This document shows positions 1,466-49,911 of a stretch of 52,227 bases of DNA, piece by piece. The position numbers were made by a program, and so were the translations under genes. The notes below the pieces were generated by a model, which was not told where the DNA came from, ran no database searches, and was given only the letters and a program-made list of their open reading frames with translations. Position 1 is the first letter of the stretch. Each line of letters starts with the position of its first letter. Location of the stretch: the IMG/VR virus record IMGVR_UViG_3300036766_000708, positions 1 to 52,227 of that record; one strand, written 5' to 3'. The DNA is from a virus.

Positions 1466-1714
1466 ATGAACGACCAGGACCTTGTGACCGACACGATCGC
1501 CATTCTGCGGGCGGACAAACCGGACGCGCTGAACCATATCCGAGCGCTGTACGCGGTCAAGCTGGTACCGCCGGTAGACCCGGTTGACACCTTCCACAAC
1601 CACCTAGATCGGTGCGATCGATGCCGGCGAATGCCGTTCGATCTATGTGCGACAGGTCGATCGTTATTGGCAGTAACCGGGCGTAATACAATCCAGGTGC
1701 GCGCCGATCGCTGA
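1466..1714 (+). CDS. small CxxC protein, 82 aa
   Basis: ATG two bases after the preceding stop. The protein has HLDRCDRCRRMPFDLC at about residues 46-61, a H-C-x2-C-x8-C cluster that could bind zinc. The first 35 residues form a helix with regular hydrophobics (DLVTDTIAILRADKPDALNHIRALYAV). It closes the rightward cluster; the long control region starts immediately after. Function unknown. Confidence 0.55.
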   Translation: MNDQDLVTDTIAILRADKPDALNHIRALYAVKLVPPVDPVDTFHNHLDRCDRCRRMPFDLCATGRSLLAVTGRNTIQVRADR

Positions 1715-1722
1715 TCAGTACC
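1711..1722. repeat. CTGATCAGTAC repeat, copy 1
   Basis: CTGATCAGTACC, spanning the stop of the 82-aa gene. Same core as the copies at 1770 and 1955. Confidence 0.6.
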
Positions 1723-1769
1723 GGACCTTCCACCCTCTCACCCGTCACTTACCGGGTACTGGTCGATCA

Positions 1770-1781
1770 CTGATCAGTACC
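1770..1781. repeat. CTGATCAGTAC repeat, copy 2
   Basis: CTGATCAGTACC, identical over 12 bases to copy 1 and 59 bases downstream of it. Confidence 0.6.
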
Positions 1782-1814
1782 CGATATCCTCCGCTCAGCT
1801 AGTCTCATAATCAC

Positions 1815-1910
1815 TCAACCTTCCTCCCTGTCCTTCCACGTCTCCGCTTCCCACTCGAACACGCGGTAACTGCCTCTGTTACAGTCACCTAGCGCGATCT
1901 CCCCGGTCAT
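1815..1910 (-). CDS. possible 31-aa peptide
   Basis: Minus-strand ATG at 1910 is preceded by GGAGGCGGGAAGTG, a good ribosome site, and reads MTGEIALGDCNRGSYRVFEW... to TGA at 1815. The Glu/Trp-rich peptide looks protein-like. It would lie downstream of the leftward zinc-finger pair. Support is only the ribosome site and composition. Confidence 0.35.
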   Translation of the reverse strand: MTGEIALGDCNRGSYRVFEWEAETWKDREEG

Positions 1911-1951
1911 CACTTCCCGCCTCCTGGCTCACTGAAACGCGGCTCAGGTGG

Positions 1952-1965
1952 GTACTGATCAGTAC
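1952..1965. repeat. CTGATCAGTAC repeat, copy 3, extended to a 14-bp palindrome
   Basis: GTACTGATCAGTAC is a perfect palindrome that contains the 11-base core shared with copies 1 and 2. Operator-like. Confidence 0.6.
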
Positions 1966-2153
1966 TCAGATACGACACAACAGACACAAGGCAACTATGT
2001 AAGTTCAATCGAATCAACACAATACGGCTACTGTAGCGGGTTCCACCCGAACCCAGACAGGGAGTGGGTAGGCTCCCCGCGGCCGGAGTGTGCAGTGGCA
2101 TGCACATGTCGTTGCCGATCGATTTTTTCTTCAGAAGGCAGCTCTACAGTGAC

Positions 2154-2183
2154 AACTGTACAGTTTCAAAAGGTTATAGTTTC
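2154..2183. repeat. 30-bp direct repeat, copy A (with palindrome 1)
   Basis: Begins with the 12-bp palindrome AACTGTACAGTT (2154-2165) followed by TCAAAAGGTTATAGTTTC. The whole 30 bases recur exactly at 2211-2240. Likely protein-binding sites in tandem. Confidence 0.8.
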
Positions 2184-2208
2184 AGGAGGGCGGGCAGGAT
2201 GACACACT

Positions 2209-2224
2209 GAAACTGTACAGTTTC
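2209..2224. repeat. 16-bp palindrome GAAACTGTACAGTTTC (2)
   Basis: Perfect 16-bp palindrome; second of five AACTGTACAGTT sites. Confidence 0.8.
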
Positions 2225-2240
2225 AAAAGGTTATAGTTTC
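2211..2240. repeat. 30-bp direct repeat, copy B
   Basis: Exact copy of 2154-2183, 57 bases downstream. Its palindrome is extended to 16 bp by flanking bases. Confidence 0.8.
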
Positions 2241-2252
2241 TAGGAAGGGTGA

Positions 2253-2264
2253 AACTGTACAGTT
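2253..2264. repeat. 12-bp palindrome AACTGTACAGTT (3)
   Basis: Third site, directly followed by CTCAGCGATCAGTACC (2265-2280), a 16-mer that recurs at 3233-3248. Confidence 0.75.
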
Positions 2265-2282
2265 CTCAGCGATCAGTACCAG

Positions 2283-2298
2283 GAAACTGTACAGTTTC
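2283..2298. repeat. 16-bp palindrome GAAACTGTACAGTTTC (4)
   Basis: Same perfect 16-bp palindrome as the one at 2209; 30 bases after site 3. Confidence 0.8.
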
Positions 2299-2363
2299 AC
2301 CACTTTCCCCATATGGATATCGGGAAATTCTCACTTGATAAAGTTAAATCCGTCCGTCCTTTG

Positions 2364-2445
2364 TTCTCTTGTACTTACCTACTGTTTCATACTGATAAAA
2401 GCCGGTTTCTCAGACAAACCGTATGGTCTGCTTAGTACAAGAGAA
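2364..2445. repeat. 12-bp inverted repeat around an AT-rich core
   Basis: TTCTCTTGTACT (2364-2375) pairs with AGTACAAGAGAA (2434-2445). The 58-base spacer contains two smaller, mutually exclusive stems: CGGTTT/AAACCG (2403-2408/2416-2421) and CAGAC/GTCTG (2411-2415/2426-2430). It sits in the most AT-rich part of the region. It could be an origin structure, a structured RNA or a large operator. Confidence 0.6.
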
Positions 2446-2547
2446 GGGGGAAAATCAGTATGGTAAGTGCGGAAGGACCCCGGATTCATTGAGGGAATTC
2501 GTGTGTACTGATTATCCAGAGCCGGGAAACCAGTATGGGGGGTCTAG

Positions 2548-2561
2548 AAACTGTACAGTTT
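2548..2561. repeat. 14-bp palindrome AAACTGTACAGTTT (5)
   Basis: Fifth site, about 250 bases from site 4 and overlapping the stop codon of the leftward zinc-finger gene. Confidence 0.75.
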
Positions 2562-2814
2562 AGGATTTGTGGAACCGGCAGCGACCGACCGGAGGTAGGG
2601 TCATCCCCTGGCGGCTCCTCGGGAAGTGTTTGTACAGGGCGGGAGCGCCGCACAGGTTGCAGGTGTCAGTGGCTGTTTCCCTGGCCTTGAGGTAGGCGTA
2701 CTGAGCGGGAGTGGTCCGACTGAACGCACCCGGCGAGGACAGCGCGAACCCGGACACCCGTATCGAGTCCGGATGTGACCCGCCCACATTGCCGGAGTAC
2801 CCCCGCCGGCTCAT
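2560..2814 (-). CDS. small zinc-finger-like protein, 84 aa
   Basis: ATG at 2814 overlaps the TGA of the upstream leftward gene (ATGA), so the two are coupled. The last 30 residues carry CNLCGAP...GRCRFH, a C-x2-C ... C-x2-H arrangement that could bind zinc; the first 50 are Ser/Gly-rich. The stop lies inside operator-like palindrome 5. With its neighbour it is the only leftward gene pair in this part of the map, facing the control region. Role unknown; a DNA- or RNA-binding regulator is plausible. Confidence 0.6.
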   Translation of the reverse strand: MSRRGYSGNVGGSHPDSIRVSGFALSSPGAFSRTTPAQYAYLKARETATDTCNLCGAPALYKHFPRSRQGMTLPPVGRCRFHKS

Positions 2815-3119
2815 GAGGGACCCCCGGTCCATTTCGCGACCAGACACTCAGGACACAGGGGTGAATGATCGGCGATCAGGTACCCGTGTCCACATCCCTC
2901 ACACGGCTTCAACCCGGCCCGCCGGAGGTTCCTGACCCGTTCTCGCGGTCCCTGGACCCTGGTGAACCCGTACCGCCAGCGGACCCCCCGCGCGGACAAC
3001 TCCAACCGTACCTGCCGGGGTGACACCCCCTGCTGCAAGCGATCATTCACGATGGCACTGAGCGTGCATGTCTGCATGGATGATGCACCGGCCTTGCAAG
3101 TGTCGTACCGACATGCCAT
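2811..3119 (-). CDS. small zinc-ribbon protein, 102 aa
   Basis: The C-terminal third has C-EGCGHGYLIADHSPLCPEC, two C-x2-C pairs about 14 residues apart, a treble-clef or ribbon spacing. Before it is a helical, Arg-rich stretch (IVNDRLQQGVSPRQVRLELSARG, then GFTRVQGPRERVRNLRRAG) that could contact nucleic acid. The start ATG at 3119 leaves a 30-base gap to the divergent gene at 3150, so any shared promoter would overlap the coding starts. Possibly a regulator acting at the nearby palindromes (inference only). Confidence 0.65.
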   Translation of the reverse strand: MACRYDTCKAGASSMQTCTLSAIVNDRLQQGVSPRQVRLELSARGVRWRYGFTRVQGPRERVRNLRRAGLKPCEGCGHGYLIADHSPLCPECLVAKWTGGPS

Positions 3120-3149
3120 GATGCACTCGGTTGAGGGAGGGTCCCCCGG

Positions 3150-3815
3150 ATGTCCACTGCTGAGCGTCTCTCGCTTCCCGCGCCTTCCTCGCGCGTTCTG
3201 TCGTCGGACGGGCCTTGTCGTCCTGATGACTCCTCAGCGATCAGTACCCTCGCGTCGACACCGGCCCTTCCCTCGACCACTGACACCCCCCGTATCCGGA
3301 AGCGGCATCTGAAGCCGCCGAAGGACACGAAGGTCTACAAAATCGCAATGGCCTACGTCGGCCTCAAGGCGCAGGGACTGAAGCTCCAGGAAATCAGCGA
3401 CACGATCGGCGTCCCGAAGGACACCATCACCACCTATGTGAAGCGGGCGAACAAGCACGGCTGGCTGAAGCGGGAATTGCTCGGCGTGGAAGACCAGATC
3501 GAACTGTCCCTCCCCGAACAGATTGTGGGCAATGTCGCGGCCGTGTTGAGTGAGCGCGACGGCACGACCCTGACCCTCACCCCGGCCGCGCGAGAAATGA
3601 CGATCGCCGCGGCGAAGGGGTTTGGGATTTTCAAGAACCACGAAGCCGTGAAGGTCGACGGGGTGATCGGCGTCGGGTTCGCGCTGAAGGTGCAAGTGGA
3701 ACTCCCACAAGGGATCAGTACCCTGTCGCCGATTCAGATCCGCCCCGGCAGTGTCGGAGGGACCCCCGCGATCGACGCTGAAATCATGGGCGACGGGGAA
3801 GGAGCGTCCTCGTAA
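3150..3815 (+). CDS. probable terminase small subunit, 221 aa
   Basis: After a low-complexity Ser/Thr/Pro N-terminus (about 45 residues) comes a helix-turn-helix (residues ~66-105: LKAQGLKLQEISDTIGVPKDTITTYVKRANKHGWL) followed by a helical segment and a beta-rich tail. HTH plus oligomerisation helices, placed first in the packaging block upstream of the large terminase, fits a small terminase that recognises the packaging site. A strong ribosome site (GAGGGAGGG) precedes ATG 3150. It contains an exact 16-mer shared with the control region (3233-3248). A different HTH regulator cannot be excluded. Confidence 0.6.
   Translation: MSTAERLSLPAPSSRVLSSDGPCRPDDSSAISTLASTPALPSTTDTPRIRKRHLKPPKDTKVYKIAMAYVGLKAQGLKLQEISDTIGVPKDTITTYVKRANKHGWLKRELLGVEDQIELSLPEQIVGNVAAVLSERDGTTLTLTPAAREMTIAAAKGFGIFKNHEAVKVDGVIGVGFALKVQVELPQGISTLSPIQIRPGSVGGTPAIDAEIMGDGEGASS
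3233..3248. repeat. CTCAGCGATCAGTACC, copy of control-region 16-mer
   Basis: Exact copy of 2265-2280, here inside the N-terminal low-complexity codons of the small-terminase candidate. Could be a terminase or regulator site. Confidence 0.6.
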
Positions 3816-5015: not shown

Positions 5016-6575
5016 ATGGCGAGCAAGAGACTTCCGCCTCACGTCGGCCTTGAGGTTGGCAAAACACTGCTCTATAACCCGTACCAACAGGAATTCCTCA
5101 AGGCCCGCCGGATGCGATTCGCGTCCTGCTGCAAGGTGATCGGGTACTGCGGGAGCGACGGGATTTTCCGGTGTCCGAAATGTGGGAAAGCGGACGCGGG
5201 CGCGGACAGAGTGTACCGTCGTCTCGGTTGTTTCGCGGGTCGTCGTGGCGGGAAATCCATCGTGGGGGCTCATGGCGCGCGGGAAGAGGTCCTGGTTCCC
5301 AATACCCTCGGGTGGATCTGTGGACCGTCGTACAAAATTCTCCACGACGCGACCATGCCGGCGTTTCTCAAACTGATCCCGCGTGAGTGGTGCGCGAGCT
5401 GGGATCAAGAACATTTGGAGTTGACCCTTGTCAACGGGGCGGTTGTCCAATTTAGGTCCCTGGACGATCCGGATCGTGGTCACGCCGGGGTGGGTTTACA
5501 TTGGGTGTGGATTGACGAAGCGGCGTTTGTGGCGGAACTGGCTTGGGACTATCTACGCCCGGCCCTTACCGACTTTGGCGGTGCTGCGTTCTTTACTTCC
5601 TCCGTAGACGGGTTTGATTGGACCTACGAACGTGTGGAAAAGCCGGCGCTGATCGACAAGAAACCGGGCTTCTGGGCGGCGAAGTGGCGGACGATCGATA
5701 ACCCGTTCATCGCGACGTACCGAGCGAATGAAGTCGAAGAGGCGCGGCTGACCATGCCGCCTCAGTTGTTCCGGCAGGAGTACGAAGGCGAGCGGGAGAA
5801 CTTCACCGGGTCCGTGTACGGCGAGTGGATCGACGATGCGTACCTCGCGGACGAAGACGCGGTCAGGACGTTCATTCCGGAGTGGCCGCGGGTGGACAGT
5901 CGACGCGTGATCATTCCGCTGGACTCCGGCGCGGACCATCCGTTCGGCGCGACCAAAATGGTGGTGACGGAGCAAGGGATCGTCGTCGTCGCGGATTATC
6001 TCGAACGTCAACGGGCGGTCAGCGCGCATTTGGTGTCGATTCGCTCCCAGTTCTCGCCCCCGTCCGACACACTTTGGTGCGCGAACCGGAACGAGGCACA
6101 ACTGCGGCTCGAATTTGCCGCGCATGGGATCTTGGTCGCGCCCGCGGAAAATGATCAGATGGCGGGGATCCAACGCGTCCTCTCCTGGCTGTACACGAAG
6201 CAGTTGAAGATCGCGTACCCGGCCCGGCGGACGTTCGACCAGATGAAGCAGTTGCGATTCTCCCCGAAGAACACCGGGAAGGACGGCGAGAAGAACGAGA
6301 AGGAAAAAGTCTTCAAGCTGAAAGACGAACTGCCTGACTGTGTGCGGTACGGGTTGATGACGTGGCCGTCGTTGCCGAAGATCCCCGACGCGATCCTGAT
6401 GCGAGACACGCGGGGGATGGACGAGAAGACGAAGTGGGAGCTGGAAAAGATCCGGACCTATGCCAGTCGCGATAACGAACGGGATCTCGAACCGGCGAAC
6501 GACGAATATCCGACCGGGAATTTCTACGGGGTGAGCGAGGACGCGATCGGGCATGACGGACACTTCTACGGGTAG
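5016..6575 (+). CDS. terL: terminase large subunit, 519 aa
   Basis: Packaging motor. ATPase: Walker A GRRGGKS (residues 75-81), Walker B WVWIDE (163-168), coupling motif TSSVDG (194-199). Nuclease half: PLDSGADHPF with Asp at 303, and LPDCVRYGLM near the C-terminus, as expected for the RNase H-like terminase nuclease. Length is normal. Unusual: a Cys cluster lies just before Walker A (C38, C39, C45, C53-x2-C56, C72), which looks like an inserted zinc ribbon between the adenine-binding region and the P-loop. ATG starts one base after the RapZ-like gene. Confidence 0.95.
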   Translation: MASKRLPPHVGLEVGKTLLYNPYQQEFLKARRMRFASCCKVIGYCGSDGIFRCPKCGKADAGADRVYRRLGCFAGRRGGKSIVGAHGAREEVLVPNTLGWICGPSYKILHDATMPAFLKLIPREWCASWDQEHLELTLVNGAVVQFRSLDDPDRGHAGVGLHWVWIDEAAFVAELAWDYLRPALTDFGGAAFFTSSVDGFDWTYERVEKPALIDKKPGFWAAKWRTIDNPFIATYRANEVEEARLTMPPQLFRQEYEGERENFTGSVYGEWIDDAYLADEDAVRTFIPEWPRVDSRRVIIPLDSGADHPFGATKMVVTEQGIVVVADYLERQRAVSAHLVSIRSQFSPPSDTLWCANRNEAQLRLEFAAHGILVAPAENDQMAGIQRVLSWLYTKQLKIAYPARRTFDQMKQLRFSPKNTGKDGEKNEKEKVFKLKDELPDCVRYGLMTWPSLPKIPDAILMRDTRGMDEKTKWELEKIRTYASRDNERDLEPANDEYPTGNFYGVSEDAIGHDGHFYG

Positions 6576-6586
6576 GGGAGGACGGT

Positions 6587-6997
6587 ATGTGGATTAGCCG
6601 GCAATTTTTCGACATGGTCCTGAGCGACAACAAGCGCCAACAGTTCGACATGCAGAAGTTGCAGGCCGAGTGTGCGGTGGGCGAGGCTCGTGTCGCGGCC
6701 CTACGTGAACAAAAAGCCAAGGACGACATCACGATCGATTGGATGCGTCATCGGGTGAACGCGCTTGAGAAAGAAAAGGCGGCATTGCTCGTGTCGAAGG
6801 GGATCAACATCTCCGTGCCTGAAATCGTGCCGACACGTCCGGGTACCGTGTCCTCGACTCCCCCTGGATTCGATCATCTCCCCTCATTTGAAGATGTGGG
6901 AGACGAACAGGCATCGAAATTTGGCGTCGCGCACGACGATCTTGGACATCTGATCCTCACGATGCCGGACGCATCCCACGGCGGTACTACGAATTAA
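6587..6997 (+). CDS. coiled-coil protein between terminase and portal, 136 aa
   Basis: Residues ~10-70 are a strong coiled coil (QQFDMQKLQAECAVGEARVA, then HRVNALEKEKAALLV); the rest is Pro/Gly-rich and acidic, probably flexible. A GGGGAGGACGG ribosome site precedes the ATG. Its place between large terminase and portal suggests a packaging or head-assembly accessory role, but no family is recognised. Confidence 0.65.
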   Translation: MWISRQFFDMVLSDNKRQQFDMQKLQAECAVGEARVAALREQKAKDDITIDWMRHRVNALEKEKAALLVSKGINISVPEIVPTRPGTVSSTPPGFDHLPSFEDVGDEQASKFGVAHDDLGHLILTMPDASHGGTTN

Positions 6998-31514: not shown

Positions 31515-31628
31515 CGGGTCCTGAGGTACTGAGTCGCGTCTGTGTCGACCCCCTGGCAATTCAGGCAATTCATGAACTCGACATGAACACAATCCCTCAA
31601 TGTTTTAGCAATTCCTACCCCTGCCCGC

Positions 31629-31652
31629 GTTCAAATCCCGCCCCCGCAACCA
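31629..31652 (+). other. attP: probable attP core: 3' end of tRNA-fMet
   Basis: The 24 bases start with TTCAAAT after a G (a T-loop) and continue CCCGC and CCCCCGCAACCA. That reproduces the T-loop, 3' T-stem, 3' acceptor strand, discriminator A and CCA of initiator tRNA-fMet (acceptor 3' strand CCCCGC-A-A-CCA). The 5' half of a tRNA and the paired 5' T-stem are absent, so this is not a tRNA gene. It is 87 bases before the integrase start, where attP usually lies. Integration here would restore the host tRNA 3' end. Confidence 0.75.
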
Positions 31653-31738
31653 AAAACTTCCCCTTTAGAATCAATCACTTAGCAAAACAGAGCAAAAGTG
31701 CTGAGTCGGATCTGAGCCGTTCGTGGTACAGTCGGGTC

Positions 31739-33455: not shown

Positions 33456-36221
33456 TTATGCCGCCTTCACGGTGAAATAGTCCGGAATGTCAATCATGTG
33501 TCCCCAGTTATCGCCACACTCGCCAGACGTTTCGATCGGGACGGTGAGCAAGTACGCGGGTACCTGCGTCATTGCGTACACCATTTGTGTATCCAGCCCC
33601 ATCAGAATCCGCTTGTCGCACTCCATCAAGAGATCGTCGTGAATCTGCAACAACGGTTCCACGCGATCACCATCCTTCCACCGGGGGAGGAGAATCTTTC
33701 GATAGACATAATCCTCCGCGACCTTCATCACTGATTGCGCGCCGGCCTGAATCGGCGTGGAAAAGGCGAACCGTTCGGCTTCAGACCGTACCGCATCATC
33801 GTATGAACGGATGCCACCGATGTAGCGTCGTCGACCACGAAGGTCCGTGACGAACCCGTACCGCCGCGCTTCCGCGATCTTCCCTTGCTGGTACTTGGGG
33901 ACGTCCTTGTAGAGCGTCATGGTTTCCGTGAGCCAGCGTTGCGCGTCATCCTCACTGACATCCACGCCGTTCTTCCGCAGCTCCAGACACAACCCGATAT
34001 TCGTCATCCCCATCGGGATCCCGAAGTTCACCGCTTTGGCCGGGAGTCGATGCTTGCTCTTGTCCTGATCTTTCGGGGCGACGCCGAAGATGCGTTGGGC
34101 CAGGGTCGCATGAAGGTCAATCCCCGTGCGAAATGCGTGCAGGAGAACCGGGTCTTGCGAAAGGTGAGCGAGCACCCGCAGCTCAATCTGACTAAGATCC
34201 CACGAGGCAAGTACCGCACCGTCGCCACTGACAAACCCCTCGCGGAACCGTTTCGCAAATTTTCCGTGTTTCGGCAGAGCGAGCACGTTCGGATGACTAG
34301 CTGCCAGCCGGCCGGATACGACGCGGGTAAGGCGGAAGGTGCAATGGATCCGGCCGTCGTACGGGTACTGATCGACGAAGTCCGGGATCTGGTCGACGAA
34401 GGTGCTTTTGAGCTTGTAGACTTCTCGGTACTCACGGATGTCTCCAATCAGCGTCCGAACGCCCACCGGAAGTCGCTGATCCTTTTCCAGCGCTTCGAGG
34501 ACCTTGTCATTGGTGGAGGGATCGCCTCCCGGTGTCCGCTTGAGTGAGGTAATGCCAAATCGCTCAAATAGAAGTTCTCCAACATGATCGGTTGAGTTGG
34601 GGTTGAAGGACCACGCGGCGTCGTCGGAGTACCCTTCGCTGCCGGCGAGGAGCTGAGACGCGATGCGGGTTTTGATTTCGACAATCTCGAATCCCAGGTC
34701 TGTACTAAGCCGGGAGAAATGAGCAAGGTCGGGCTTGAGGCCGATCTGTTGCATCCGGTCAATGAGGGGGATGGTGGCGAGATCGGCCTGGTACGTATCG
34801 GATAGATTCGCCGCCGCCAGTCGTTCAACCAGACGCGGCTTGAGTCGATGGGTGCAGTCAGCATCGCGGCCGGCATAGTGCAGAGCGACATCCAACGGGA
34901 CATGATCCAATGTAGCCGCCCACATTGCGCCGTATTGAGGCCGAGCGTCGATGTGTCGATCGAGAACCTGATCTCCCCAGAGCTTGCGAGGATCTTTGGA
35001 TCGGAGACATCGTTCAACCGACTTAAACAAATCTGATTTTGGGAGTTTCGGATGCACTGAAAGGCGACGACCGGGATGGACTTTCCCCTTCGCGTCGGTG
35101 TACGGGGTCGTGGTGAGTCGCGTAAATTCTTCGAGACACCGGGTTTCCCAGCCATCTTGTTCGTTCTCCCAACAGGACAGTAACCAATCCTGCGCTAATC
35201 GAAAGTTCGCGTCACCCATGACGTCGTCGTAGTGGTCCATTTTCATGTTGCAGTGGCGGGCACCGAGGGGTTTCAATCCCTGCGGTTCCAGTTGCAGGAC
35301 GAACGCCATTTGCATCGTATCGTCAAACGTCAGGTACCGGGTGTCGATGCCAATCGCCCGAAAAATGTTCAGCTCGTGGAGGGCGGAATGAAAGACAAAA
35401 CGATATACGGGGACTCCCCCGGCTTCAACGGACTGAAGGTCACTGTTGACCCATTCGACAAAGCGATCGACAAGAGCCTTCCAGCGATTGCGAATGATGT
35501 AGGCATGGCCGGGGCGGGTCGTGAGCTGGACGGACCAGACGTTGTGCGCCCACCCTTCCGTATCGCACGAGAACTCAATCGTGTTCGCTTCGAGCATGAT
35601 GTGATCGACGGTTTCGACATCGAGTACCTCCTCATACACCGGGTTCGGGATCGGGTCGTCGTAGAGAATCCGGGGGCCGATCGTGCCATCCAGGACCCCT
35701 TCGAGTTGTGAGAAATCGTACGTGACCGCCGCGGAGAGTTCGGGGGACCGGAATCCTGCCGCCGGATTATAGATCGGGAAAATCACCACTTCCTCGGGGT
35801 GCTCGAACAGCGTCCGCCGAGGGGAATCGATCGGGAGGTACCACGGAATTGCGTGCGAGCTCTCCATATCCACGTCGCCGAGGAACCACTGCGTAATGTG
35901 GCGCCCGAGGCAGATGATGTACTTTGGTCGAACCGCCTGAAGTTCCGTGATCAGTGCAGGTTCGTCACGCTCAAAATCAGCGGAGGTATAGTCGCCCTCC
36001 GGCCCGCACCATTCTTTGACCCAGACCGTACAGTAGCAATCGTGACGAGCCGGTAATCGGACACCGTCGAGGTAACGATCAATTTCGTTGGTTCGCCGAC
36101 CTTTCGCACTAAACGGACGTCCAGTACTCGCGTCATCTTTGCTTGCCCATTCTCCACAGATGAACAGATCACAAGGGATCGGGCCGGTGCCGACGATCCT
36201 GCGTCCTATACCGCTTGACAT
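33456..36221 (-). CDS. polA: UDG-like/family A DNA polymerase fusion, 921 aa
   Basis: Replicative polymerase. Residues ~10-165 resemble the uracil-DNA glycosylase superfamily: GTGPIPCDLFICGEWAS...STGRPFSAKGRR (motif I region), IICLGRHITQWFLGD and FPIYNPAAGF. Exonuclease: DTE at 220-222, HELNIFRAIG, YAGRDADC near 455. Polymerase: motif A DLSQIELRVLAHLSQDP (~675), motif B RLPAKAVNFGIPMG (~735), motif C QIHDDLLME (~865). Family A enzymes usually have H-D-E in motif C; here it is HDD. An N-terminal UDG-like domain is known from the SPO1 polymerase. Glycosylase activity is uncertain. Confidence 0.9.
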   Translation of the reverse strand: MSSGIGRRIVGTGPIPCDLFICGEWASKDDASTGRPFSAKGRRTNEIDRYLDGVRLPARHDCYCTVWVKEWCGPEGDYTSADFERDEPALITELQAVRPKYIICLGRHITQWFLGDVDMESSHAIPWYLPIDSPRRTLFEHPEEVVIFPIYNPAAGFRSPELSAAVTYDFSQLEGVLDGTIGPRILYDDPIPNPVYEEVLDVETVDHIMLEANTIEFSCDTEGWAHNVWSVQLTTRPGHAYIIRNRWKALVDRFVEWVNSDLQSVEAGGVPVYRFVFHSALHELNIFRAIGIDTRYLTFDDTMQMAFVLQLEPQGLKPLGARHCNMKMDHYDDVMGDANFRLAQDWLLSCWENEQDGWETRCLEEFTRLTTTPYTDAKGKVHPGRRLSVHPKLPKSDLFKSVERCLRSKDPRKLWGDQVLDRHIDARPQYGAMWAATLDHVPLDVALHYAGRDADCTHRLKPRLVERLAAANLSDTYQADLATIPLIDRMQQIGLKPDLAHFSRLSTDLGFEIVEIKTRIASQLLAGSEGYSDDAAWSFNPNSTDHVGELLFERFGITSLKRTPGGDPSTNDKVLEALEKDQRLPVGVRTLIGDIREYREVYKLKSTFVDQIPDFVDQYPYDGRIHCTFRLTRVVSGRLAASHPNVLALPKHGKFAKRFREGFVSGDGAVLASWDLSQIELRVLAHLSQDPVLLHAFRTGIDLHATLAQRIFGVAPKDQDKSKHRLPAKAVNFGIPMGMTNIGLCLELRKNGVDVSEDDAQRWLTETMTLYKDVPKYQQGKIAEARRYGFVTDLRGRRRYIGGIRSYDDAVRSEAERFAFSTPIQAGAQSVMKVAEDYVYRKILLPRWKDGDRVEPLLQIHDDLLMECDKRILMGLDTQMVYAMTQVPAYLLTVPIETSGECGDNWGHMIDIPDYFTVKAA

Positions 36222-36230
36222 GATCGCTCG

Positions 36231-36563
36231 TTAGGACCGGACGTACGGATTCGGCGGCAACGCTCGCGATCGTCCAGTCGCGGTCACAGTTGTGAGTCGC
36301 CAACCGGGAGGCATCAGCGATTGTAGAAACACGTTGACTTCGTCGAAATAGACGCGCCGGACAGACCGGTCAAAGCCATCCATATGCTGAGATTCAGTGA
36401 GGGTGAACACGCGCCCGGAGAAGTGTTCGTCCTTGAACTGATCGAGAAATGCGCGCTTCATGGCGTGGTTGGGCGTCACCAGACGCGCATCCAGATCGCG
36501 TTTCAGTTCTTGCGCCAACCAGTACGACTTCCCGCCGCGCCGGGGTGCTGTGATGAACTCCAT
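36231..36563 (-). CDS. minimal P-loop protein, 110 aa
   Basis: ATG at 36563 overlaps the TAA of the nuclease gene. Walker A is APRRGGKS (residues 6-13: MEFITAPRRGGKSYWLAQEL) and a Walker B-like strand is RRVYFDEVNVF (~78-88). Only 110 residues, much shorter than a full RecA or AAA core; it may be a truncated ATPase or a compact clamp-like helper. Sits between the ERCC4 nuclease and the polymerase, ten bases before the latter. Confidence 0.65.
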   Translation of the reverse strand: MEFITAPRRGGKSYWLAQELKRDLDARLVTPNHAMKRAFLDQFKDEHFSGRVFTLTESQHMDGFDRSVRRVYFDEVNVFLQSLMPPGWRLTTVTATGRSRALPPNPYVRS

Positions 36564-37318
36564 TAGCTCAATACCTCTCGAATGTGCGTGGCGATCACTT
36601 TCCCGACGCCAGGGACGTCCATCAGTTGCTTCTGGGTCGCGGACGCTAGTCGTCCCCACGTGCCGAAATGGTGTTCGATCGCCCGCCCCTTGTCCCAGCC
36701 GACGCCGTCGATCCCCGCGAGCATCTTCAGCATTTCGCTGGGGGGCGACATCATCACCTTGTCCGGGGGCGGGAGGTAGATCGCTTGGTGTGATCGGTGT
36801 TCCTGCAATTCCTTCGCCGTCCACCAGTGATACAGCGTCGCGAGAAAGCGGATCGTGTCCGCTCGCGTCTGGCAATGCCAGTACGACAACCCGCCGCGGA
36901 TCGTCTGCGTCAGGATCCAGGACTCGAGATCGTTGTACATGATCGCCCGCGTACCGACCTGCACCGGGAACCACCCGCGTTTCTTCGTCGCCGCGTCCCA
37001 GGTGTAGTGCAGGAGTACCCCATCATCGCTCTGTTTCCACATACCTTCCGTGAGCAACCATGCCCGGTCGTAAATCTTGTGCTCGTCCATCGCGAGGCCG
37101 TAGAGTTGATGGCCGGCGAAGCGACCCCCGAGCATGGACGAGACGACATCGCGGGATTCCTTGAGTTCGATGCCGATGAAGACGTCCGCACCGTCGATAC
37201 CTTTCCCGATGAAAGCCACGTCTCCAAAATCGAGATGGGTAAGATCCGCGGGTACCCCGTAGCGGTTGAGGGGTCCTAAAAGATCGCGAGATCCGATGCG
37301 TTCGTCCACAAGGAGCAT
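36563..37318 (-). CDS. ERCC4-type nuclease with HhH domain, 251 aa
   Basis: MLLVDERIGSRDLLGPL starts the family core; FGD33 and I-E51-L-K53-ESRDVVSSM correspond to the G-D...E-R-K-x3-D of XPF/Mus81 nucleases (Lys in place of the usual R-K pair). The C-terminal 60 residues hold helix-hairpin-helix repeats (LAGIDGVGWDKGRAIEHHFGTWGRLASATQKQLMDVPGVGKVIATHI) that bind DNA. Full-length for phage versions. Start at 37318 gives TCAT overlap with the preceding gene; the longer upstream frame is antisense-like. Likely flap or branch processing in replication. Confidence 0.85.
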   Translation of the reverse strand: MLLVDERIGSRDLLGPLNRYGVPADLTHLDFGDVAFIGKGIDGADVFIGIELKESRDVVSSMLGGRFAGHQLYGLAMDEHKIYDRAWLLTEGMWKQSDDGVLLHYTWDAATKKRGWFPVQVGTRAIMYNDLESWILTQTIRGGLSYWHCQTRADTIRFLATLYHWWTAKELQEHRSHQAIYLPPPDKVMMSPPSEMLKMLAGIDGVGWDKGRAIEHHFGTWGRLASATQKQLMDVPGVGKVIATHIREVLS

Positions 37319-43919: not shown

Positions 43920-46364
43920 TTACGCCACGAATTCGAGCGGCGCGGGGATGTGTTCGACGTAGAGGATCGCGTCCTTGAACCAGCGGGGCGCGTGCTTGCT
44001 GAATCGCCGGAGGAACCAGTCAGCGAAATGGTCGTCGACAATGAACGTGTTGTGCGCGCCGAAGCCTTCAGCCACATAAGTAGCAGTCGACGTCTGAAAC
44101 GACGAGATCGGCCCGTCCGGTAGACGTTCTACACGAAGCACTGTCGATACGGACGTGCGTCGAAGATCCTCAAGACGCTCCGACGCCAGGAATTTGTCAA
44201 GTAAACGATTTGGGCGGATTTCACCCAAAAAACGAAGCTGCTCCGTCGCGCCGCCACGAATCGATAAGACGGCGTGTTCAGGACGCGGGAAGGTCGTTCC
44301 GAATCGGTACCCGAGATGCGTTAAATAATCGGCCGCGCGCAACGCCGTATCCGTGACATTCTGTGAAAGAAACACCTGCAAGACGCCGCGGTTGCGTTTA
44401 CCACGTCCAATAGCGAGACAACCTTCACCGTCTGTAAATCCGCTCAACCATCCTTTTTCGTAGGTATCTTCAGTCGTCCAAGGCTCAAGCAGTCTCAACA
44501 TCTTGTCGCCGGGTTGAAGCCGATCCGCCCTCCACCACGCCTGCATACGCGAGTATCCCTGTTCTTTTCGGTGCGCGTGTATCAGCCACGGGTGATTGGG
44601 AGTGCAAATTAGCTCCGCGTCGTTGAGGATCACCCTGACGCGTGGCATGGTACTCACGCGGCTCTTGACGACGGTCGACCATTGCCATTTACGACGGCGC
44701 ACGGATGCACCCACGCCAGGGACACGACTTTGTGAGAAGTGCTGGCCCTCTTCGTCGAACGCGAGTAGTTCAGTGCCTTCGGCGATGTCCGCTGCGGCAA
44801 CCCACCGGAGATCCTTTGTCAAAATACGTGTTTCCGGCGACACGCACTCGCACCAATCGTCAGGACCGCGCATCCCCCGGCCGCACGCCTGGACGAGTTT
44901 CTGCATCGCAAGGTAGCCGGCGTATTCTTTGTCGAGTTCGGCCCGGACCTTGAGAATCGGTCCTCGCATGTCGGGTTGCGGCACCTTCCCGATGATTTGA
45001 AAGCGGCATTGATCGTCAGGGAAGTCGTACCCGGTCACGACAGAGGGCGATACCAACACCCACCCTTCACCGGGGTGTGCCTTGAACCACTGGATCTGTT
45101 CGCGGGTGTTCGACGGATCATGGACAATGAACCGGTCACGGTACTCCGACATGGCCATCAATTCCTTCATGCGTTGGTAACTGACCGTGTGAATGATCCC
45201 GTTCCAGTTGAGCGCCAACCGCGGGCCGAGGATGCGATCGATCCGTTGCAACCACAGGTACTTGGTGGTTTCGTGCATCCGGGCATCGACACGGACGGAC
45301 GGATAGGTATTAACGGAGATCACCGGGCGCTGCGACAACGGGAACCGCGACGGGCATTCCCAGAACAGCACCTTGTCGGGACCGATGCCCAATAGTTGCA
45401 ACGTCTTCGGCGTCATCGTCGCGGACATCAGGAGGATGTGCGGGATCCCCCGGAACAGATGACTCTCCGCGTACTTACTGACCCGCATTGGGGCGAATCG
45501 TGCCCGCATGGGGTCGAGGTCGAGAATCCAGTCCAGCGGGTCGATGTTGGATAGCCGATCCAGGATCCCTTTGATTCGCTTCAGCCGCTTCGTGTCCTTG
45601 ACGCCTTCAATGTCGATGGGCGGATGGAGCGCCCGTGCTTCGAGCTTCCGGTCGAGCGGTGTTCGATGATGGTCCGCCCAATCTTTCCACGCCTGGAGAT
45701 TCGTGTCTTTCAGGAGCTTCGAGCCGATGTACTTCGCATCCTCCCCGGTGACTTCGACCGCGAGGAACGCTTCGAGTTCCTTGTCCGCGTCATGCGCCTC
45801 GTCGAGGATCAGGAGGTCTATCGGTCCCAGTCCTTCCGCGTACTCCTCAGTGGCGAAGTACATGGCGTAGTTTGTCGACACCAGGGCGGCTCGTCGAGCA
45901 TCCCACACCGCACCGTAGTACGCACAATCCGGCCGGATTGCGGGCCGTTCCCGCGCTGGCGCGAAGTCGCAGCGGACTCCTGAATGACACGGACCCTCAT
46001 CGCACCCGATGTCGTGCCGGGAGCGGCGATAACGATCAAGGTGTCCCCCTGGTTCGACCGCGTGGCAAGGATAGTTGCGCGCACCGCGGAGATCAATGAG
46101 TCCAAGTGACTGAAAGTCAGGCGCGAGCTGATCTTGGAGTCCCTTGGTACTTGTCAGATAAACGACACGTTTCACCTCTGGATGGAGTAGGGACACGAGC
46201 ATCCCGGTTGGGGATTTTCCCGATCCGGTCGGCATCGCGAGCGCAGAAAAGCGTTTCGGATTGAGGAGGACTTTGTCGACGGCGATCAGTTGGTCGTCGT
46301 ACCAACTCGTAAATTTAGGAGGGAAGCCGAGTAAGACGGGATCGGGTAAGGGTGTGGATTTCAT
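43920..46364 (-). CDS. DinG-like Fe-S helicase interrupted by an intein, 814 aa
   Basis: SF2 helicase, XPD/DinG type. Walker A PTGSGKS (residues 45-51); Cys at 100, 121, 126, 132 and 147 probably hold a Fe-S cluster; DEAH at 188-191; LLMSATMTP; motif VI QACGRGMR just before residue 500. An intein occupies residues 507-772; joining the exteins gives DDWCE-TFIVDDHFADW, the normal continuation. Extein length about 548. ATG 46364 overlaps the upstream TGA. Likely the replicative or repair helicase of this phage. Confidence 0.9.
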   Translation of the reverse strand: MKSTPLPDPVLLGFPPKFTSWYDDQLIAVDKVLLNPKRFSALAMPTGSGKSPTGMLVSLLHPEVKRVVYLTSTKGLQDQLAPDFQSLGLIDLRGARNYPCHAVEPGGHLDRYRRSRHDIGCDEGPCHSGVRCDFAPARERPAIRPDCAYYGAVWDARRAALVSTNYAMYFATEEYAEGLGPIDLLILDEAHDADKELEAFLAVEVTGEDAKYIGSKLLKDTNLQAWKDWADHHRTPLDRKLEARALHPPIDIEGVKDTKRLKRIKGILDRLSNIDPLDWILDLDPMRARFAPMRVSKYAESHLFRGIPHILLMSATMTPKTLQLLGIGPDKVLFWECPSRFPLSQRPVISVNTYPSVRVDARMHETTKYLWLQRIDRILGPRLALNWNGIIHTVSYQRMKELMAMSEYRDRFIVHDPSNTREQIQWFKAHPGEGWVLVSPSVVTGYDFPDDQCRFQIIGKVPQPDMRGPILKVRAELDKEYAGYLAMQKLVQACGRGMRGPDDWCECVSPETRILTKDLRWVAAADIAEGTELLAFDEEGQHFSQSRVPGVGASVRRRKWQWSTVVKSRVSTMPRVRVILNDAELICTPNHPWLIHAHRKEQGYSRMQAWWRADRLQPGDKMLRLLEPWTTEDTYEKGWLSGFTDGEGCLAIGRGKRNRGVLQVFLSQNVTDTALRAADYLTHLGYRFGTTFPRPEHAVLSIRGGATEQLRFLGEIRPNRLLDKFLASERLEDLRRTSVSTVLRVERLPDGPISSFQTSTATYVAEGFGAHNTFIVDDHFADWFLRRFSKHAPRWFKDAILYVEHIPAPLEFVA
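44049..44846 (-). mobile_element. intein with LAGLIDADG-type homing domain, 266 aa
   Basis: Begins with Cys (CVSPETRILTKDLRWVAAADI, splicing block A) and ends GFGAHN before a Thr +1 residue, the required C...HN-T arrangement. LICTPNHPWLIHA is block B (TxxH-like). A central WLSGFTDGEGCLAI is a LAGLIDADG motif, but only one is clear, so the endonuclease may be single-motif or decayed. Inserted at the end of helicase motif VI, a conserved site. The DNA reads more AT-rich than its flanks, consistent with transfer. Confidence 0.88.
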
Positions 46365-49529: not shown

Positions 49530-49549
49530 TCAGCACTGGGTACCCTTTT

Positions 49550-49648
49550 CTATGTACGATGCAGACCATACGGATTGTCTGAGTCACCGGGGTACCTGCA
49601 ATCGGTACACCGGACGTAACGATCAGTGCATCCGTGACTTCCCGCCAC
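49550..49648 (-). CDS. possible small Cys peptide, 32 aa
   Basis: GTG at 49648 follows GGAGGA by 5 bases and reads MAGSHGCTDRYVRCTDCRYPGDSDNPYGLHRT. Three Cys (C-x6-C-x2-C) plus His could form a zinc knuckle. Overlaps the 64-aa gene by 26 bases in another frame. Support is the ribosome site and Cys pattern. Confidence 0.45.
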   Translation of the reverse strand: MAGSHGCTDRYVRCTDCRYPGDSDNPYGLHRT

Positions 49649-49817
49649 GGCGTCCTCCGTAGAAATCCGTGTGAGAATCCGTCCGACGAAGGTTGATGCG
49701 CGCCGCGAGGACCTTGTCGGATCGGTACGGCCGTGGTTCCGTACGAGGGACCGGCCGTGGCCATGCACTTGACGGGTACACCGGGCGAATCAGGTCGGCA
49801 ATCTTCGTGTCACGCAT
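49623..49817 (-). CDS. hypothetical protein, first of leftward operon, 64 aa
   Basis: First gene of the long leftward unit, ATG 49817 with GGTAGG upstream. Product is Arg/Pro-rich (VYPSSAWPRPVPRTEPRPYRSDKVLAARINLRRTDSHTDFYGGRRGGKS); the GGRRGGKS end mimics a P-loop but is at the C-terminus and not functional as such. No family recognised. Confidence 0.5.
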   Translation of the reverse strand: MRDTKIADLIRPVYPSSAWPRPVPRTEPRPYRSDKVLAARINLRRTDSHTDFYGGRRGGKSRMH

Positions 49818-49911
49818 CAGCTTGACCTACCACTTCCACTGAGTTAAGCTCTCCCGGTAAATAGTCCGCATACGACACAGTGACGCACGAACGGACTTGG
49901 AGGACAGGCCG
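49818..49911. promoter_or_regulatory. divergent promoter region
   Basis: 94 bases between the leftward operon and the winged-helix gene: the only place where promoters for both can lie. TTGACC (49822-49827) may be a -35 element for the rightward gene; on the minus strand TATTTA could be a -10. Neither is strong. Operator sites for the neighbouring regulator would be expected here; no perfect dyad stands out. Confidence 0.4.

Follow-up and report, generated by a model that had tools for sequence, protein, structure and literature searches.

A palindrome array upstream of the terminase genes of an uncultured phage: candidate iterons of a packaging-initiation region

In phage P1, the cut at pac is surrounded by short repeats that include TGATCA/G hexamers, and the phage encodes a Dam, while iteron-type replication origins (lambda O, plasmid Rep) display clustered iterons in AT-rich DNA. 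Regarding SPP1, the repeats of the pac site adjoin the small-terminase gene, and the HTH domain of the small terminase of SF6/SPP1 does not read the pac repeats in a sequence-specific manner (PMC4737164). The Microbacterium phage Akoni is a podovirus with circularly permuted ends (PMC8281081) and is too divergent to serve as a comparison for the region described here. Another Microbacterium phage, Shocker (NC_073470), is a distant relative (22% identity of the portal) in which a 484-bp terminal repeat (1-484 and 44948-45431) is likewise found upstream of HTH and terminase genes, but which lacks the box conserved in closer relatives (see below). Four CCTTTACAGG motifs occur in this terminal repeat and also recur elsewhere in the Shocker genome, where they are perhaps promoter elements; as they are not limited to the terminal repeat, an analogy with terminal-repeat iterons was ruled out.

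The locus under study is part of an IMG/VR virus sequence of 52,227 bases, the whole of which is hereafter called the window. The two ends of the record are adjacent in the relative L020, with about 40 bp missing, indicating a circularly permuted assembly of a nearly complete phage genome. The TerL, portal and capsid genes are on the + strand, a tyrosine integrase is encoded at 31.7-33.0 kb, and the polymerase, Dam and helicase genes run leftward, those for polymerase and helicase being placed at 33-46 kb. No close cultured phage was found, TerL and portal showing less than 30% identity to named or deposited phages among the listed matches, and no prophage copy was found in GTDB genomes with TerL or portal. 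Related loci were gathered by TerL and portal searches, which yielded 6, then 16, then 79 of them, while the presence of genes was tested in 13 records, several of which are fragments, so that negative results among these are limited. The palindromes and direct repeats of the left end are the following:

2154-2165 (no strand): palindrome 1, AACTGTACAGTT, 12 bp, perfect
2208-2225 (no strand): palindrome 2, TGAAACTGTACAGTTTCA, 18 bp, perfect
2253-2264 (no strand): palindrome 3, AACTGTACAGTT, 12 bp, perfect
2283-2298 (no strand): palindrome 4, GAAACTGTACAGTTTC, 16 bp, perfect
2548-2561 (no strand): palindrome 5, AAACTGTACAGTTT, 14 bp, 264 bp from palindrome 4 and syntenic with the L020 site at 6926
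2154-2183 (+): copy 1 of a 30-bp direct repeat, palindrome plus degenerate site at 2168-2183
2211-2240 (+): copy 2 of the 30-bp direct repeat, palindrome plus degenerate site at 2225-2240

All five copies of AACTGTACAGTT found in a search of the whole record lie within 2154-2561, with start-to-start spacings of 57, 42, 32 and 264 bp, and no further copy exists elsewhere in the 52,227 bases even when up to two mismatches are allowed. Among 100 dinucleotide shuffles searched with the same tolerance (<=2 mismatches), the number of sites averaged 0.62 and peaked at 3, and no shuffle reached five. An earlier note on this DNA had deduced a dedicated DNA-binding protein from the density of the palindromes and had named frequent occurrence of the 12-mer throughout the genome as the observation that would speak against it; the 12-mer is restricted to 2154-2561, and the deduction of such a protein is sound. 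The exact 30-bp direct repeats reported in that note are indeed present, as are five palindromes with a common core, but one of its two 16-mers measures 18 bp. When the five sites are turned into a weight matrix, they take the top ranks and are followed by AAAAGGTTATAGTTTC at 2168 and 2225, a degenerate copy of the palindrome that forms the second half of each 30-bp repeat. Regarding 8-mers, ACAGTTTC is found seven times in a 1.2-kb interval around the array, with a -log10 p of 14.2 vs at most 6.7 in the 163 other intervals of the record. The 16-mer was detected in 15 IMG/VR contigs, with one copy apiece and no array in any of these, and the 30-bp unit and the two-site pattern are absent from the remaining viral contigs. 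A literature search for the 12-mer gave a sole match, which has no connection with phages.

Within the left end, GC content is lowest around the array (AT-rich DNA, 46% GC at 2001-2400), which is flanked by two convergent genes, orf 1466-1714 (+) and orf 2811-3119 (-), no high-scoring gene being found within 1715-2810. Downstream of the array come the HTH gene 3150, which encodes a putative small terminase, and TerL (5016). Promoter-like sites in 1600-3300 are as numerous as in shuffles, a count to be read with the reservation that the host promoter type may differ from the model, and no Rfam RNA family was found in the window. Two further repeats had been overlooked in the earlier note, namely a second clustered repeat, GATCAGTACC with longer flanking matches (at 1710, 1769, 1951, 2268 and 3236), and a repeat pair between palindromes 4 and 5. 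The features of the surrounding region are as follows:

1710-1722 (+): copy 1 of the second repeat family, CTGATCAGTACC, with syntenic L020 copies at 6081-6643
1769-1782 (+): copy 2 of the second repeat family, ACTGATCAGTACCC
1950-1965 (no strand): copy 3 of the second repeat family, including the 14-bp palindrome GTACTGATCAGTAC
2092-2135 (+): match of the window to the G-rich/A-tract box of its relatives, weak, with a score of 5.3, seventh best of 104,368 positions
2265-2280 (+): copy 4 of the second repeat family, CTCAGCGATCAGTACC, between palindromes 3 and 4
2449 and 2524 (+): repeat pair GGAAAATCAGTATGG / GGGAAACCAGTATGG, with a conserved stretch at 2449-2538, partly retained in L020
2560-2847 (-): doubtful ORF with a CxxC/CxxH pattern, its end falling inside palindrome 5
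2811-3119 (-): small Zn/HTH protein showing Zn-ribbon-like cysteines and a hint of three RecX-like helices
3094-3122 (+): promoter-like TTGCAA-17-CATGAT preceding the HTH gene, the TTGCAA being retained in several relatives
3150-3815 (+): HTH protein, a putative small terminase and the leading candidate for binding the array
3233-3248 (+): copy 5 of the second repeat family, CTCAGCGATCAGTACC, within the 5' part of the HTH gene
5016-6575 (+): TerL, terminase large subunit

Such an organization recalls the pac site of SPP1/SF6, where several sets of short repeats are also found near the gene of an HTH small terminase and vary among related phages (PMC4737164). However, the SPP1 pac overlaps the promoter and start of the small-terminase gene, whereas the array of the window lies some 600-1000 bp upstream, a small gene intervening, and its repeats are perfect palindromes. 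The analogy is weakened by the SF6 HTH domain, which does without specific reading of the repeats. As with the P1 pac, the window has copies of TGATCAG together with a phage Dam methyltransferase (PF05869, 38726-39439, -), and these copies cluster near the array in a manner reminiscent of P1. Unlike those of P1, the GATC-containing repeats of the window are scattered over about 1.5 kb, and the corresponding repeats of L022 (GGTACTAGTACC) have no GATC, though the record of L022 aligns over the Dam gene.

While the locus stays in place, the repeat family is swapped among relatives. In the closest relative, L020/L021, whose TerL is 89% identical, two diverged copies of the palindrome, GAAACTGTAAGGTTTA and GAAACTATAAGGTTTT, are present at the syntenic place, and no other sequence in the 37.8-kb record G002 matches the palindrome matrix as well as these two. 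Different repeats are found at this place in L022 (AACCACAC, five copies), L023 (ACTTACAC, six), L024 (AACTAGTA, three), L050 (GACACTCA, four), L068 (CTGTGTCA, six), L070 (GTGACACA, four), L079 (AGTGATAG, six), L111 (AACTGTTG, five) and L113 (CAAGTCGG, four). Repeat enrichment in a 1.2-kb interval centred on the box exceeds that of every background interval of the same record in 8 of 26 loci, about one or fewer being expected, and an exact-repeat array is absent in about half of the 26 box-bearing loci tested. This replacement at a fixed locus provides a natural series in which to follow a phage DNA-binding protein as it changes along with its site.

The box itself, shared by most related loci, consists of a G-rich segment and then AAAATTTT; it points the same way as the terminase genes in every case and lies 1.7-5.7 kb before TerL. 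With a leave-one-out matrix, it is the best match in all 19 loci (19/19), a test that is partly circular because the boxes had been chosen for G-richness and an AT run. Among 15 held-out loci that did not contribute to the matrix, seven have a clear match upstream of TerL, with scores of 15-23 vs 3-9 on the reverse strand, and two strong copies of the box are found 65 bp apart in L020. The succession of a G-rich segment, the AAAATTTT tract and the small-terminase gene is, by eye, similar to that of lambda cos (cosN-cosB), but lambda fails to match the box matrix, no conserved dyad or two-fold symmetry was detected across 26 boxes (best z 1.9), and none of the contigs examined by their coordinates starts or ends at the box, the window being a circularly permuted assembly. 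A cosN of the lambda type was ruled out by the lack of a dyad and of a contig end at this position.

Regarding the proteins that may bind the palindromes, each of the 37 loci examined has a gene for an HTH protein upstream of TerL (37/37), with the same gene order. In the protein encoded at 3150, a three-helix HTH at residues 61-103 is predicted confidently and the remainder with low confidence; a structure search with the predicted protein returned generic HTH matches only and no small terminase, and it is synteny, position and the HTH that point to a small terminase (TerS). This protein was not among the candidates named in the earlier note. Of those candidates, the winged-helix protein 49912 is restricted, among the 13 records, to the window and its closest relative there, G002, and no homologue of the 2560 ORF is detectable in L020. 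The third, the small Zn/HTH protein 2811, is encoded between the array and the HTH gene and is present in the window, G002, G003 and, weakly, G006 among the same records, its homologues adjoining the array in L020, L022 and, weakly, L050.

On the basis of position, exclusivity and the comparative pattern, the palindromes can tentatively be read as iterons of a packaging-initiation region, to be bound by the small terminase or by another HTH protein encoded nearby. As in pac and cos regions, the repeats are short, clustered and phage-specific, and they are located near the putative small-terminase gene, with the HTH gene 3150 and TerL 5016 downstream. Since the repeats at this spot differ from relative to relative, a start of packaging (or copying) is most likely, rather than a lysogeny switch; among the operators, iterons and partition site considered in the earlier note, iterons fare best. 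A dimeric or ring-forming HTH protein encoded by the phage, most likely the putative small terminase 3150 and alternatively the Zn/HTH protein 2811, would bind GAAACTRTA half-sites, and with four sites close together and the fifth 264 bp off, the DNA might be bent or looped by the protein once bound. The array so bound would mark the phage concatemer, which TerL would cut near the G-rich/A-tract box. Because related phages keep the locus and swap the repeat, each would package its own DNA. A broader proposal, which is possible but doubtful, is that this uncultured phage lineage shares an undescribed genome-start element made of a G-rich/A-tract box amid phage-swapped iterons, with the iterons as a specificity code; if true, this code would restrict each phage, in a co-infected cell, to packaging (or copying) its own DNA.

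The main rival is a replication origin, in which the palindromes would be iterons for a phage replication initiator and the surrounding AT-rich DNA the site of strand opening. The AT-rich low point and the clustered phage-specific iterons, present in relatives with and without an integrase, are shared with iteron-type origins, but no initiator gene was found near the array, no Rep_3 initiator (the sole initiator family searched) was found in the 13 records, and the locus is linked to the terminase operon instead of the polymerase and helicase genes. In the window, G002 and G003, the cumulative GC skew does bottom out no more than about 1.5 kb from the array; however, this minimum is confounded by gene direction and the third-position skew is too weak to back a replication bias, and GC skew was therefore discarded as evidence for an origin. 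Such an origin appears somewhat unlikely, yet in either case the array would mark a probable start of packaging or replication in this uncultured lineage.

A role as operators through which a phage repressor or regulator, e.g., the winged-helix protein 49912, would control lysogeny or the transcription entering the terminase region is unlikely. Perfect palindromes of 12-18 bp are what dimeric repressors usually recognize, and as the window and G002 have similar sites as well as the winged-helix protein in common, together with a tyrosine integrase found only in these two of the 13 records, the sites may act as operators in those two phages alone. Against immunity operators, as proposed in the earlier note, stand the intergenic location between convergent genes, promoter-like sites no commoner than in shuffles, the lack of any copy in 49530-49911, where divergent early promoters are likely, and the arrays at the same locus in relatives devoid of the winged-helix protein and of tyrosine or serine integrase, no serine recombinase being found in the 13 records. 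Among these records, some of them fragments, arrays do not track lysogeny genes; a cluster of palindromes is not necessarily a set of immunity operators, even in a temperate phage. Clustered palindromes are also typical of parS arrays, but a partition (centromere-like) site for a ParB-type protein, likewise suggested earlier, is very improbable given that neither ParB_N nor a ParA-type AAA_31 was found in the 13 records and that a phage with an integrase does not need plasmid-like maintenance. Multiple short sites with mixed spacing could finally suggest integrase arm-type sites of attP, the least credible of these roles and one that was rejected: the array does not flank the putative attP core (31625-31660), which is directly upstream of int and 29 kb away, and relatives that lack a tyrosine integrase have arrays as well. 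The same putative attP sequence, GTTCAAATCCCGCCCCCGCAACCA, is found before int in G002, near 6529, and is identical; this core resembles the 3' end of an initiator tRNA.

Elsewhere in the window, DNA polymerase A (33456-36221, -) carries an N-terminal domain of the uracil-DNA-glycosylase superfamily in the same ORF (PF03167 + PF00476), an unusual fusion, and an ERCC4-type nuclease with helix-hairpin-helix domains (36563-37318, -) adjoins a polymerase in a genome that also encodes a DinG/XPD-like helicase. In many putative small terminases of the lineage, namely those of L059, L068, L070, L085, L107 and L113, the HTH is preceded by an N-terminal H-x-C-x-C-xx-C-like zinc-binding pattern.
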